Shown: piece after piece, positions 10,336 to 18,846 of the stretch | Numbering within the stretch: position 1 is the stretch's first letter | Layout: each line of letters starts with the position of its first letter | Source of the DNA: Synechococcus sp. MU1643 | GTDB taxonomy: Bacteria; Cyanobacteriota; Cyanobacteriia; PCC-6307; Cyanobiaceae | DNA length: 64,000 nucleotides | Assembly (NCBI RefSeq): GCF_020514095.1 | Contig: NZ_VTKY01000002.1 | Coordinates: forward strand, 186,001 to 250,000 | Direction of reading: 5' to 3' | Position numbers and translations under genes: made by a program | The notes under the pieces: model-generated | Database searches by the model: none | Told to the model about the DNA's origin: nothing | The model's input: only the letters and a program-made list of their open reading frames with translations

Positions 10336-10851
10336 ATGCGCTTTACCATTGTTTATGCGTCTGCAACTGGTCATACAGAAGACATCGCAGAAAGGCTGAA
10401 AGTGCTATTGCCGGGATCAGAATTAAAAGACCTTGATAGAATGGATTTCGTAAAAGAGCTGGAAGAGTCTGAGGCACTTATTTGTTGTACTCCAACGTGG
10501 AATACGGGTTCTGAGACCAAGAGATCAGGTACAAAATGGGATGAGCATATTGATAATATTCCTTATTTATCCCTAAAAGGCAAGCCTATTGCAATTGTAG
10601 GCTTAGGTGATTCTGCGGCCTTCAGCAAGTATTTCTGTGATGCAATGGAAGAGCTTTATAAATCATTCGAATCTGCAGGAGGTCGGATGATCGGCCATGT
10701 ATCAGTTGAGCAATATATCTTCGATGATTCTAAAAGCGTTATTGACGGAATGTTCTGCGGCCTACCTTTGGATGAAGATAATGAATCCGAAAAAACCGAT
10801 GAGCGACTTCAGTCTTGGGCCAGGCTAATTATGAAAGAGGTGATTATATAA
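10336..10851 (+). CDS. Flavodoxin-like protein
   Basis: 171 residues. The FMN phosphate-binding loop is YASATGHTEDIAERL near residues 8-22, and the isoalloxazine loops are CTPTWNTGS (about 52-60) and VGLGDSAAFSKYF (about 94-106), as in long-chain flavodoxins. Such proteins replace ferredoxin as PSI electron acceptor when iron is scarce. The glycines and aromatic positions around FMN are present. Codon use is AT-rich, unlike the chromosome, fitting acquisition with the island. It stands alone, with a long non-coding upstream region. IsiB proper is the closest known role. Confidence 0.85.
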   Translation: MRFTIVYASATGHTEDIAERLKVLLPGSELKDLDRMDFVKELEESEALICCTPTWNTGSETKRSGTKWDEHIDNIPYLSLKGKPIAIVGLGDSAAFSKYFCDAMEELYKSFESAGGRMIGHVSVEQYIFDDSKSVIDGMFCGLPLDEDNESEKTDERLQSWARLIMKEVII

Positions 10852-12107: not shown

Positions 12108-12476
12108 TTAAATCAGACCTAGTATTGAGAAAAGACCTCTGCTCAGAACTATTAGTAACGCAATTGATGTGCAAGTAATCAGGTTTAGTGATACCAGCTG
12201 AAAAATGATTGGACTTTGCATTTTTTCAGGAGTTCCCTCGTTTTTTTGTTTTCCAAGGGGCTTGTCCCAATAGGCAAAGACCAGTCCTTTCTTGACCTCA
12301 AGTGTGTTGCGTGTGTTGAGTGCGCCGTAGCCAAACTCACTAATTATTTCTGTTTGTTGCCGGATTTTTTTGCTCTCATTGACAAAGATCGATTGAATCC
12401 AATCGCTGTGTGTTTTGATTCCAGCGGCAATCCAGATGATCGCGGTAACCCCAACAAGAACATTGAGAATGTCCAT
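12108..12476 (-). CDS. Membrane protein, unknown
   Basis: 122 residues with an N-terminal hydrophobic helix (ILNVLVGVTAIIWIAAG) and a C-terminal one (LITCTSIALLIVLSRGLFSI). Between them is a polar loop containing SEFGYGALNTRN and KKGLVFAYWDKPLGKQ. AT-rich codons. No family recognised. The gap 12477-12849 downstream of the next minus-strand gene holds nothing I can assign. Confidence 0.6.
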   Translation of the reverse strand: MDILNVLVGVTAIIWIAAGIKTHSDWIQSIFVNESKKIRQQTEIISEFGYGALNTRNTLEVKKGLVFAYWDKPLGKQKNEGTPEKMQSPIIFQLVSLNLITCTSIALLIVLSRGLFSILGLI

Positions 12477-12849: not shown

Positions 12850-13101
12850 TCACGCAGAAGCTTTTTTTTTGTTAGTGCTAGTCGTATTAATATTTTTCTC
12901 TATCTTTTGGGTTTTTGCTCCAGGGTCTTTCTTGTCAGCTGTAGGTGTTCCCTTTGCGACTGCTGTCGTTTTTTTGGGTTTAAGTTTGCTTGTATCTAAG
13001 GAACCTTCGCCTAAAGACTTATACCCTAGAAAGATTAGTCCACCTACAACTGGGATTGAAGTAAGCCCACCCATAGCAATTTCGAATTCGCTCAACGCCA
13101 T
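12850..13101 (-). CDS. Small membrane protein with Lys-rich tail
   Basis: 83 residues from ATG 13101. MALSEFEIAMGGLTSIPVV and GGLIFLGYKSLG form one short hydrophobic segment. The last 50 residues are Lys/Thr/Ala-rich (KPKKTTAVAKGTPTADKKDP), a disordered basic tail. The start overlaps the stop of the small frame upstream (13092-13250), suggesting translational coupling. Function unknown. Confidence 0.6.
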   Translation of the reverse strand: MALSEFEIAMGGLTSIPVVGGLIFLGYKSLGEGSLDTSKLKPKKTTAVAKGTPTADKKDPGAKTQKIEKNINTTSTNKKKASA

Positions 13102-13306: not shown

Positions 13307-14053
13307 TTGGCCTCCCTTTCTGCCAGGGCTCGCTTGCCATTCAAGCCATCAAGTCAAAACTCTCGAGTTGACTCAATATCAGCTTCTCGTCAACCCTGTT
13401 GGGATCGAGCGCCAGATTTGTCGTCAGAAATAATTGAAAGGTGTTATCGGCAGATATATTTTCATGCAATGAGTTGTGATCGTGATCGATTTTTAGAATC
13501 CCAGCTTAGGTCAGGTTCTATCACCGTAAGAGATTTTATAAGAGGACTACTACTTTCGGATCGTTTTTATAGGGGCTATGTCGAATGCAATGGGAACGAT
13601 CGAGTAGTTGAGCAGGTCGTAGGCCGTGTCCTTGGTCGTCCTGTCTACGGACAAGATGAAGTGAAATCTTGGTCCATTGTTATTGCTGAACAGGGATTTG
13701 CGGCTTTTGTTGATGACATCTTGGAATCTTCTGAGTATTTTGAGAGATTTGGAATTGATGGAATCCCCGATCAAGTAAACCGTATTTTGCCAGGACGCTC
13801 TCAAGGAGAGATGCCTATCTATCAGCGATTTCCTCGCTATGGAGAAAGTTGGCGTGATCGACTGATTCGTGATGGATTAATGATCTCTGTAGATGCCTTC
13901 AATAAAATCAGTCGGCCAATGACGGTATCCCGTCTGATCTATGAAAAGCCTGAGGGTCGTCTTTTTAAACTTTGGCTTGTTTTCTTGTTTGTTTTAGGCG
14001 TTGGAAGTGTTTCCTTGGTTCTTTTAGTCTTCCGCCAGATGTTCACGATTTGA
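13307..14053 (+). CDS. cpcL: Membrane-anchored phycobilisome rod linker, CpcL-like
   Basis: 248 residues. Residues about 8-170 match the CpcG-type linker domain: LPFKPSSQNSRV at the N-terminus, then RQIYFHAM, FLESQLRSGSITVRDFIRGL, VVGRVLGRPVYG and WSIVIAEQGFAAFVDDIL, then ILPGRSQGEMP. Instead of the core-binding C-terminus of CpcG, it ends in one hydrophobic helix (LVFLFVLGVGSVSLVLLVF), the hallmark of CpcL/CpcG2, which tethers rod-only phycobilisomes to the thylakoid and PSI. The start is odd. TAA is directly upstream of TTG 13307, no ATG occurs until about residue 51, and homology reaches nearly to the TTG, so TTG is taken. A ferredoxin gene follows after 26 bp. Confidence 0.85.
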   Translation: MASLSARARLPFKPSSQNSRVDSISASRQPCWDRAPDLSSEIIERCYRQIYFHAMSCDRDRFLESQLRSGSITVRDFIRGLLLSDRFYRGYVECNGNDRVVEQVVGRVLGRPVYGQDEVKSWSIVIAEQGFAAFVDDILESSEYFERFGIDGIPDQVNRILPGRSQGEMPIYQRFPRYGESWRDRLIRDGLMISVDAFNKISRPMTVSRLIYEKPEGRLFKLWLVFLFVLGVGSVSLVLLVFRQMFTI

Positions 14054-14079
14054 GTGAGATATTGGGTTAATCCAGAATT

Positions 14080-14403
14080 ATGTACATTTCGGAAAAATCA
14101 GTTAAGGCAGCTTTCTCGGCTAAATCAGGTAATTGCCATGGTCGCACTGGGCTAGAGCCATCTTTGGGTGGAGCATTGCGTGAAAAAGCAGTTTGGGTTG
14201 ATGAGTCTGATTGCATTGGTTGTCGTTACTGTGCACATGTGGCGTCTAATACTTTTGTCATGGTCCCAGAAACAGGTCGTTGCCGTGCTGTTCGACAAGA
14301 TGGCGATACAATAGATCGAATACAGGAGGCGATTGATACCTGTCCCGTTGATTGTATTCATTGGGTAGACTTTGAACATCGTGGTGACGGCGTAGAGATA
14401 TGA
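14080..14403 (+). CDS. [4Fe-4S] ferredoxin
   Basis: 107 residues. After a 35-residue N-terminal extension comes KAVWVDESDCIGCRYC (C-x2-C-x2-C) and, 33 residues later, TCPVDCIHWV supplying the fourth Cys. This is one 4Fe-4S cluster of the type found in thylakoid-associated bacterial ferredoxins. A soluble electron carrier is expected. It starts at ATG 14080, 26 bp after the CpcL-like gene on the same strand, so the two are probably one transcript. AT-rich like the rest of the island. Partner reductase unknown. Confidence 0.88.
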   Translation: MYISEKSVKAAFSAKSGNCHGRTGLEPSLGGALREKAVWVDESDCIGCRYCAHVASNTFVMVPETGRCRAVRQDGDTIDRIQEAIDTCPVDCIHWVDFEHRGDGVEI

Positions 14404-14519: not shown

Positions 14520-14678
14520 ATGCAAACCACAAACCACCCATGCGCATGTGAACCCTGTGGCTGCTGCGTCAATCCGGAAAAAGCTATCGAGAAAGAAGGC
14601 AAGATTTACTGCTCTCAGCCATGTGCTGATGGTCATGCCGGTGATGAGCAATGTTGCTCTAGTTGTAGTTGCTGCTAA
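14520..14678 (+). CDS. smtA: Bacterial metallothionein (SmtA/BmtA)
   Basis: 52 residues with ten Cys and two His. MQTTNHPCACEPCGCCVNPE, then YCSQPCADGH and a Cys-rich end CCSSCSCC match the SmtA pattern (CACEPC, Y-C-S-x2-C-A-D-G-H), which binds a zinc cluster. It sequesters Zn or Cd in the cytoplasm. The gene lies 116 bp after the ferredoxin stop. In strain WH8102 the homologous bmtA is activated by Zur (published knowledge), and a Fur/Zur-type regulator lies at 18436-18846. I see no obvious Zur palindrome in this promoter, only TTCTTC/GAAGAA around 14422-14440. Confidence 0.88.
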   Translation: MQTTNHPCACEPCGCCVNPEKAIEKEGKIYCSQPCADGHAGDEQCCSSCSCC

Positions 14679-15571: not shown

Positions 15572-15706
15572 TCACCCCATCCCGATTTGAGAAAGGATCC
15601 CTTGACCGGTGAGTAGCTCAGTGCCAAGACCAATGATGAAACCCATCATTGCCAGGCGGCCATTCCAGGTTTCAGCGAAAGACGAGAAGCCGAACTTGCT
15701 GTTCAT
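15572..15706 (-). CDS. hli: High-light-inducible protein (Hli)
   Basis: 44 residues from ATG 15706 (MNSKFGFSSFAETWNGRLAM). The chlorophyll-binding helix motif AExxNGRxAMxGFxxG is complete and is followed by LTGQGILSQIGMG. Single-helix thylakoid proteins of this family bind chlorophyll and carotenoid during stress and photosystem assembly. They are often carried by islands and cyanophages. This copy lies just inside the right boundary of the island. A second hli is at 17428-17664, outside it. Confidence 0.9.
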   Translation of the reverse strand: MNSKFGFSSFAETWNGRLAMMGFIIGLGTELLTGQGILSQIGMG

Positions 15707-15964
15707 AGCATCGTTAAGAAACGTAACAATCTTACAGGCGTTCTTCTGCCTCTGTTGTGCCAAATGAATCAACCAGCTCCACAAGCTTTACCTCTGAGCC
15801 TTATGCGGTTTTGACAACTCTTGGGAGCCTCCCGAGCGAACACGGAGTCAGGTCAGTTAACGCCCCTGCCCCAGCCCACTGTCTCGGGCTTAGAAACCAG
15901 TCGTGCTCAACGGTCTGGCCAGTGATTTGAAGGTTTTATCGATTTCGGCTTTCAGCTTGATGGT

Positions 15965-17427: not shown

Positions 17428-17664
17428 TCAGAAGCAGAAGGGCAGGAATTGGGTGCGGCAGGCGGCATAGCCATCCACCAGGGGACCTAAGCCGATCTGG
17501 TGAACGATGCCTGCACCGGTGAGCCCTTCGGTGATGATTCCGATCACGATGCCGAGCATGGCGGCACGGCCGTTGAAGCGTTCAGCCTTTTTGAGCTGCT
17601 CCATATGGATGTCGCGGGCGGCGACACCCTGGAACCAAGAATCGTTGGCTTGGGGAGATTTCAT
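17428..17664 (-). CDS. hli: High-light-inducible protein (Hli)
   Basis: 78 residues from ATG 17664 (MKSPQANDSWFQGVAARD); a TTG nine bases upstream is the alternative. The helix KAERFNGRAAMLGIVIGIIT carries the ExxNGRxAMxG chlorophyll-binding motif and is followed by LTGAGIVHQIGLG. Thylakoid membrane protein for photoprotection and pigment handling. Longer than the island copy because of extra N- and C-terminal residues. Confidence 0.9.
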   Translation of the reverse strand: MKSPQANDSWFQGVAARDIHMEQLKKAERFNGRAAMLGIVIGIITEGLTGAGIVHQIGLGPLVDGYAACRTQFLPFCF

Positions 17665-17701
17665 CGAACTCAAGCTGTTGTTATAAAGCTTAATCCGAAA
17701 A

Positions 17702-18439
17702 TCAGTTTTTCAGCAGCAGACGTTCCCCCGGTGTTGGATCGGTCCAGCGGCTGCTGGCCGGCAGCTGGGCTCCAGTGCTGGCCACAGATCCTTTCATTTG
17801 CAGGGCCCGACTCAGGGCGCCGCCAAAGCGCACATCGCCGCCGGAGGTGCTGGCGAGCACCGTGGTGGGTCGGAAGCGTTCCACCAGTTGCGGCACTACG
17901 GAGCAGCCCTTAACAAACGCCCCAAGCGCGGGCAACCCCAGGTCCACCATCGGCGTGATCACGGCATCCAGCGGTTGCGGCTCCAGGGCTGGATCGAGAA
18001 AACCATGGGGTTCCAGGTAGAGCGATCCGGCCGGATGCTCGAGCAGATAACCGTTTTCCACCATCGGCACCGGTGCACCGGCGCTGGCCTGCACCTGCAA
18101 GCCCTGGTGGGTGGTGCTTTCTCCGGGGGAGAGGGCTTGCACGCTGGTGAAGCCCAGGCGTTCCACCACCCGTGTTGCGGTCACCGATCCAATGACGGGC
18201 AGATCCTTGGGCAGCAACGCCAAGGTTTCCGGATGGGCGTGGTCCGCGAGTCCTTGGGTGAGCAGTAGCAGGTTCAGCTTCTCGGGTACCTTGCGCTCGC
18301 AGGGAAGCTCCCCTTTGAGAAGCCATTCTCCCGGGGGGAAACTCAGGCTGCCGCGCAGCCAGGGATCTACCAGAACGCGGAGATCATCGAATTCGAGCAA
18401 CCAGCCATTGGCTCCGTAGTAGGTAGCGGCCAGGGTCAT
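17702..18439 (-). CDS. MBL-fold metal-dependent hydrolase-like protein
   Basis: 245 residues with the metallo-beta-lactamase-like layout of UlaG/YtnP-type proteins. YYGANGWLLEFDDLRVLVDP is at the N-terminus, the motif LLLTQGLADHAHPETL near residues 57-72 replaces HxHxDH, and YLEPHGFLDP lies near 141-150. Because the canonical first His of the metal motif is missing, catalysis is uncertain. Its ATG overlaps the stop of the Fur-type gene, so the two are translationally coupled. Substrate unknown. Confidence 0.8.
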   Translation of the reverse strand: MTLAATYYGANGWLLEFDDLRVLVDPWLRGSLSFPPGEWLLKGELPCERKVPEKLNLLLLTQGLADHAHPETLALLPKDLPVIGSVTATRVVERLGFTSVQALSPGESTTHQGLQVQASAGAPVPMVENGYLLEHPAGSLYLEPHGFLDPALEPQPLDAVITPMVDLGLPALGAFVKGCSVVPQLVERFRPTTVLASTSGGDVRFGGALSRALQMKGSVASTGAQLPASSRWTDPTPGERLLLKN

Positions 18440-18846
18440 GACGGATTTTGCTGCCGCTCGCGGCAGTCGCTGCAGAGACCGAAGAATTCAAGCGTGTGAA
18501 ACAGGAGATCGAAGCCTTTGCGCCCGTCTTTGGGCACCTCCAGGTCGTGAATTGGGCAGTGGTCGAGCGCTTGTGTCTTGCCGCAATCGACGCAGGTGAG
18601 GTGGTGGCGATCCCGCTCCAGCGGCGCGTAGAGAGCTTCTCCATTGGGTAGGTGGCGGCAGCGCACCAGCCCACGTTGCTGCAGCTGACGCAGATTGCGG
18701 TACACCGTGGCCAGGCCCATGGCTTGGTCGGGCTCCAGGCTGCGGTGCAGTTGCTGACCGCTCATCTCATCACCACAGGCCTGCAGGCTCGCCAGCAAAA
18801 CCTTCTGGCGGGCATTGATCTGGCTGGAAGGGCGGCGAGTGGCCAT
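18436..18846 (-). CDS. zur: Fur-family transcriptional regulator, Zur-like
   Basis: 136 residues. The winged-helix DNA-binding part contains GLATVYRNLRQLQQRGLV (about 44-61), the usual Fur recognition helix. The dimerisation half has HHLTCVDCGKTQALDHCPIH and, near the C-terminus, CSDCRE, giving the two CxxC structural zinc pairs. HxH residues for sensing are present. Zur is favoured because the homolog in strain WH8102 is known to activate the bmtA metallothionein, and a metallothionein lies 3.8 kb away; PerR or Fur cannot be excluded. Cotranscribed with the MBL-fold gene (overlapping stop/start). Confidence 0.85.
   Translation of the reverse strand: MATRRPSSQINARQKVLLASLQACGDEMSGQQLHRSLEPDQAMGLATVYRNLRQLQQRGLVRCRHLPNGEALYAPLERDRHHLTCVDCGKTQALDHCPIHDLEVPKDGRKGFDLLFHTLEFFGLCSDCRERQQNPS

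Follow-up and report, generated by a model that had tools for sequence, protein, structure and literature searches.

A predicted membrane-anchored phycobilisome linker and its ferredoxin neighbour: a candidate low-iron antenna and redox module in marine Synechococcus

Why would a marine Synechococcus strain carry a third CpcG-type phycobilisome linker that ends in a hydrophobic helix, with a ferredoxin gene close behind it? Large parts of the ocean hold too little iron for marine Synechococcus, and the question bears on how these bacteria keep PSI lit when making less PSI. The two genes lie in the window, by which we mean the whole 64,000-nucleotide stretch analysed here, from the 2.07-Mb picocyanobacterial genome of Synechococcus sp. 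MU1643. The reading developed below, to which we give roughly even credence, is that they belong to an accessory antenna-and-redox module of low-iron-adapted marine Synechococcus; we infer its PSI target, its rod-only phycobilisome, its iron-related induction and its contact with FTR (ferredoxin-thioredoxin reductase).

Anatomy and descent of the linker

The linker gene (13307..14053, + strand) starts with TTG and encodes a protein of 248 amino acids and of the CpcGIII type. The initial annotation had seen in it a CpcG-type N-terminal domain and a single C-terminal hydrophobic helix, and profile search, hydropathy and AlphaFold2 all agree. A PF00427 (PBS_linker_poly) match of 116 bits spans residues 40-155 (13424..13771, + strand). 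The last 30 residues form one hydrophobic helix, the putative membrane anchor, with a maximum Kyte-Doolittle mean of 2.84 over 19 residues, a measure that stays below 1 in all of the canonical CpcG proteins compared. AlphaFold2 models the helix at residues 218-247 (13958..14047, + strand), in a block with a pLDDT of about 76-88. Such a helix is kept in all accessory linkers compared, and the VPYR/VPRR-type C terminus common in canonical CpcG is absent from the window linker.

Two further CpcG-type linkers are encoded in this genome: a canonical CpcG without the helix (L078, on contig C9) and a linker of the phycobilisome rod region (L007, C5:34279) that is likewise helix-ended. The CpcGII-type relatives of L007 that were examined all end in a hydrophobic helix, with one borderline exception (L159). 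Could the window copy be an ordinary rod-core linker duplicate with no special role? It has the same PF00427 domain as CpcG, but it branches apart from L078 of its own genome, and its distribution is patchy and tied to isiA (described below). The missing canonical tail, the membrane helix and a tree position apart from canonical CpcG rule out an ordinary CpcG, and a duplicate of this kind seems to us very improbable indeed. Grouping with ordinary CpcG, against which the initial annotation had staked its reading, is not seen in the trees.

What about CpcL, the other obvious candidate? The window linker has the parts that mark a CpcL: there is one N-terminal PF00427 domain and a single predicted C-terminal transmembrane helix, and the canonical CpcG tail is missing. 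A tree of 92 linker proteins, which contains several long branches, divides the helix-bearing linkers in two. Those of the window's family, CpcGII and CpcGIII alike, make up one group, and those from other cyanobacteria make up another, separate group. The latter is that of real CpcL, its member L129 being a near-twin of Synechocystis CpcL (8hfq_n; 539 bits, full length). With the C-terminal columns left out, a tree constrained to a single clade of helix-bearing linkers is worse by 51 log-likelihood units and is rejected by the AU test (p = 0.0019). Membership in the classical CpcL clade is ruled out by this test, and the window linker is not an orthologue of its members; the expected branching with CpcL gave way to a place among picocyanobacterial CpcGII and CpcGIII. 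The window linker is CpcL-like in anatomy, not in descent. With the tree unrooted, the anchor may have been gained twice, or gained once and then lost. If the separation is true, phycobilisome linkers with a membrane anchor have appeared, or disappeared, on more than one occasion, and a hydrophobic end would not suffice to make a gene called cpcL an orthologue of the CpcL that has been studied.

The gene already has a name. Four relatives (G216, G234, G089, and G222), which we take to be CC9605, CC9902, BL107, and CC9311, respectively, each carry a linker of the window type. Six et al. named cpcGI, cpcGII, and cpcGIII and place cpcGIII only in BL107, CC9902, CC9311, and CC9605 (Six et al. 2007, PMC2246261). 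The window linker matches this cpcGIII, which is named in the open-licence literature searched only in that paper. The initial annotation knew of no earlier description, and this holds in part: the gene is the cpcGIII of PMC2246261, but its anchor, its Fed7-type partner and its tie to iron genes were not found described in the main texts of open-licence papers, and an earlier report of the pairing may exist.

The ferredoxin, its pairing with the linker and their surroundings

The ferredoxin gene (14080..14403, + strand) begins 26 bp past the linker, and both open reading frames lie where the initial annotation had put them. Its 107-amino-acid product matches Fer4_13 (60 bits) and, because it has a single CxxCxxC...CP set of ligands (C45, C48, C51, and C88), is expected to hold one [4Fe-4S] cluster. 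An extra cysteine, C92, stands four residues past the last ligand, in a CPVDC motif (14341..14355, + strand) that reads CPV[DN]C in all sequences compared. By motif and published description, this is a Fed7-type ferredoxin, an assignment made with Synechocystis Fed7 (sll0662) itself outside the tree. Fed7-type genes occur in nearly every genome of the window's family (376 of 400), and the window copy is the second, distinct paralogue of its genome. Accessory copies form one clade (98/98) apart from the core copies, from which they are told by a further cysteine, C68 in the window protein (codon at 14281..14283, + strand). All 22 accessory copies read G[RK]CR at this place, while all 19 core copies have a serine (GRSR). 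What might such a protein do? In Synechocystis, iron starvation induces Fed7, the fed7 mutant is iron sensitive, and residue C100 of the protein contacts FTR (PMC4284462). C92 of the window ferredoxin is apparently the counterpart of this C100, which is needed for the contact.

The pairing is conserved in other marine Synechococcus, as the initial annotation had anticipated. Of 30 accessory linker loci, 21 have the ferredoxin next door: in 13 it follows directly on the strand of the linker, and in 8 the two genes stand tail-to-tail. The other 9 have none nearby. These 21 loci rule out a pair unique to one genome. Looked at from the other side, 21 of the 22 genomes with an accessory Fed7 have it beside the linker. 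The 22nd, G314, has it 2.1 kb from the second flavodoxin, not by the linker; the module is split there, with the accessory Fed7 and one flavodoxin on contig C12 and the linker, isiA, and the other flavodoxin on C27 (L035 and L059). The tail-to-tail loci (L027-L034, in G271, G277, G283, G295, G307, G312, G317, and G327) come with a second flavodoxin, which suggests that they may belong to the low-iron clade CRD1. Tail-to-tail order makes a single operon impossible in that lineage; the pairing is nonetheless kept in two orientations, which favours a functional tie, though not one operon everywhere. Nor is the ferredoxin obligatory for the linker, since some loci lack it next door. A consensus scan found no terminator past the linker, which is weak evidence for read-through.

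What else surrounds the pair? GC content is 40-44% over the 10-15 kb around it, against roughly 60% on either side and 60-65% in the flank beyond 17 kb, and "island" is therefore a fair label for this variable, low-GC region. "Mobile cassette," the other term used initially, is not borne out, as no integrase or transposase match was found among the open reading frames scanned. The flavodoxin noted at the same time is real: a profile match identifies the genome's second flavodoxin (10336..10851, + strand), located upstream in the same low-GC region and stopping about 2.5 kb short of the linker. The stretch between these two genes encodes two small conserved proteins that match no known family. 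One, of 122 amino acids with hydrophobic ends (12108..12476, - strand), is found close to the linker at most of the loci from the window's genus; the other, of 83 amino acids (61-135 in relatives) with a hydrophobic N terminus and a Lys-rich tail (12850..13101, - strand), is divergent from the linker in nearly all of them. Both accompany the linker even at ferredoxin-less loci. A prokaryotic metallothionein (14520-14678, + strand; PF02069, 45 bits) follows 116 bp past the ferredoxin; its homologue holds the same position in L091 and lies elsewhere near the linker in L092. Two small high-light-inducible-type proteins (15572-15784 and 17428-17673, both - strand; weak PF00504 matches) lie downstream, at the edge of the low-GC region, and some 4 kb past the ferredoxin, where the GC-rich flank begins, sits a Fur-family regulator (18436-18846, - strand; PF01475). 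Between 8 and 18 kb of the window, no Rfam match to a structured RNA was found. A viral or phage origin finds no support: the phage records searched have no match to the linker or the ferredoxin, and the viral contigs searched have no linker-family match.

Might the linker and the Fed7 paralogue be independent low-iron or stress genes that share one variable region, each acting alone? The 9 of 30 linker loci without a ferredoxin would fit this, as would the metallothionein and high-light-inducible-type proteins in the same low-GC region, the G314 ferredoxin that stands by a flavodoxin and the tail-to-tail order that excludes a shared operon in one lineage. Loose neighbours, however, would hardly adjoin in 21 of 22 cases, in two arrangements and several genomic contexts, and we regard independence as possible but on the unlikely side.

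The tie to iron-stress genes

Which other genes does the linker keep company with? In 42 genomes listed as near complete, from two marine genera, isiA is present in 18 of 18 genomes with the linker and 5 of 24 without it (p = 1e-7), and flavodoxin in 18 of 18 and 6 of 24 (p = 5e-7), though these Fisher tests overstate significance because the genomes are related. A second flavodoxin is found in 11 of the 18 linker genomes and a second Fed7 also in 11, and neither occurs in the 24 others. The link to flavodoxin that was first suggested by the window is thereby borne out. The sample of 400 genomes includes four fragmented or incomplete genomes with two Fed7 matches but no linker and three incomplete linker genomes without an isiA match. 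The linker also lies less than 2 kb (1-2 kb) from isiA in two linker subclades, one represented by G267, G186, and G314 and the other by G234, G089, and G291. A PetF-type ferredoxin stands between linker and isiA in G267 and G186, where ferritin is directly beside the linker and flavodoxin about 5 kb off. In the source genome, the first flavodoxin (C1:284502) is about 6 kb from isiA, on another contig than the window.

How does this compare with published surveys? Dufresne et al. found isiA and isiB in only 4 of 11 strains, BL107, CC9311, CC9605, and CC9902, and a specific ferredoxin in the same four (Dufresne et al. 2008, PMC2441476). These are exactly the four cpcGIII strains of PMC2246261. 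The ferredoxin in question need not be the accessory Fed7, which BL107 and CC9902 lack. A second isiB has been reported in the low-iron clade CRD1 (Doré et al. 2020, PMC7522525), and the window flavodoxin is a second copy like it. At the transcript level, iron-addition metatranscriptomes show pcbA, isiB, trxB, and a subset of ferredoxins raised in Synechococcus from iron-limited water, with the linker unnamed (PMC9723758), and iron limitation reduces the cpcG transcript, copy unspecified, of an oceanic strain from clade II (PMC12274634). A consensus scan upstream of the linker gave no convincing Fur box, the best candidate having 7/19 mismatches and not rising above the background of the window, and an alignment of 14 upstream regions gave no conserved promoter footprint, only close relatives aligning.

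It was initially postulated that the linker fixes rods to PSI/NDH-1 and that the ferredoxin takes electrons from PSI to NDH-1 in cyclic flow. Classical CpcL does work with PSI (PMC10322944), and a predicted membrane anchor and a ferredoxin partner are what such a scheme would use. On the other hand, the known role of the Fed7 type is in stress redox chemistry, downstream of FTR, and not as an NDH-1 donor (PMC4284462), and the surroundings of the linker hold no recognisable ndh genes. Its company of isiA, isiB, ferritin, and Fed7-type genes is that of iron stress and points to iron limitation. Cyclic or alternative electron flow has become the weaker reading, and an improbable one.

A possible role and comparison with known systems

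How could these parts work together? The low-iron module favoured here takes the predicted anchor, the domain, the paralogy, the conserved pairing and the co-occurrence with isiA and isiB as its firm ground in sequence. The PF00427 domain would bind the hexamer at the base of a phycocyanin-based rod, and the hydrophobic C-terminal helix would fix this rod directly in the thylakoid membrane, with no allophycocyanin core in between. Its most likely place is next to PSI, with or without a ring of IsiA. PSI takes much iron to build, a burden when iron is low, and each scarce PSI centre would keep a large, iron-free antenna; the rods would enlarge the antenna of every centre that remains, much as IsiA enlarges it with chlorophyll. 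Flavodoxin would take over as the bulk PSI electron acceptor. The accessory Fed7 would most likely be a stress redox regulator fed via FTR and not a bulk acceptor. Adding a [4Fe-4S] protein to save iron is odd unless its role is regulatory, which counts against the proposal; against the PSI role stands the finding that the linker is no orthologue of the proven PSI-bound CpcL. In PMC2246261, CpcGII goes undetected in phycobilisome fractions from most of the strains studied, which fits with membrane linkers being lost from soluble preparations, though nothing there bears directly on CpcGIII.

Might the rods be anchored for some other use, such as attachment to PSII or to the IsiA ring, or the parking or quenching of surplus rods under iron stress? 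A phylogeny without a tie to PSI-bound CpcL leaves room for this, as does the presence of IsiA in all near-complete genomes that carry the linker. PSI, however, is the nearest precedent in function for a PF00427 linker with a membrane anchor, and nothing seen here speaks for PSII binding; such a use has, in our view, little probability. A bolder form of the low-iron module, offered as a tentative speculation that is unlikely to hold in full, is that the picocyanobacterial anchor evolved apart from CpcL and that one of its branches became an iron-limitation antenna, taking rods to PSI-IsiA with a dedicated Fed7, marked by its extra cysteine, as redox controller. With its distribution nested in that of isiA and isiB, and usually with a ferredoxin paralogue of its own, the known but unexplained cpcGIII gains a testable role, and metagenomic surveys could use the linker-ferredoxin pair to mark low-iron ecotypes.

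How does the locus compare with systems already known? Like the cpcGIII of Six et al., the linker gene is the third cpcG of its genome and stands apart from the other phycobilisome genes; PMC2246261 lists it as a rod-core linker, with no mention in the accessible portion of the membrane helix, the ferredoxin partner or the iron link. Its closest paralogue group is CpcGII (C5:34279 in its own genome), which also ends in a hydrophobic helix and is about 47% identical. The CpcGII gene is resident among the phycobilisome rod genes in the marine Synechococcus genomes of Six et al., and no accessory ferredoxin is known for it. With CpcL/CpcG2 of Synechocystis (8hfq), the window linker shares PF00427, the single C-terminal membrane helix and the lack of a canonical CpcG tail; it differs in belonging to a separate clade, and its PSI binding is putative where that of CpcL is proven. 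The ferredoxin has in common with Fed7 (sll0662) of Synechocystis a single [4Fe-4S] cluster, the CxxCxxC...CPVxC motif and the extra C-terminal cysteine, but it is a second paralogue, has the additional GRCR cysteine and adjoins an antenna linker. Lastly, the window locus is no isiAB operon, isiA and the first flavodoxin being on another contig, but the distribution of the linker is nested in that of isiAB, and the two share the same genome place in two sublineages.
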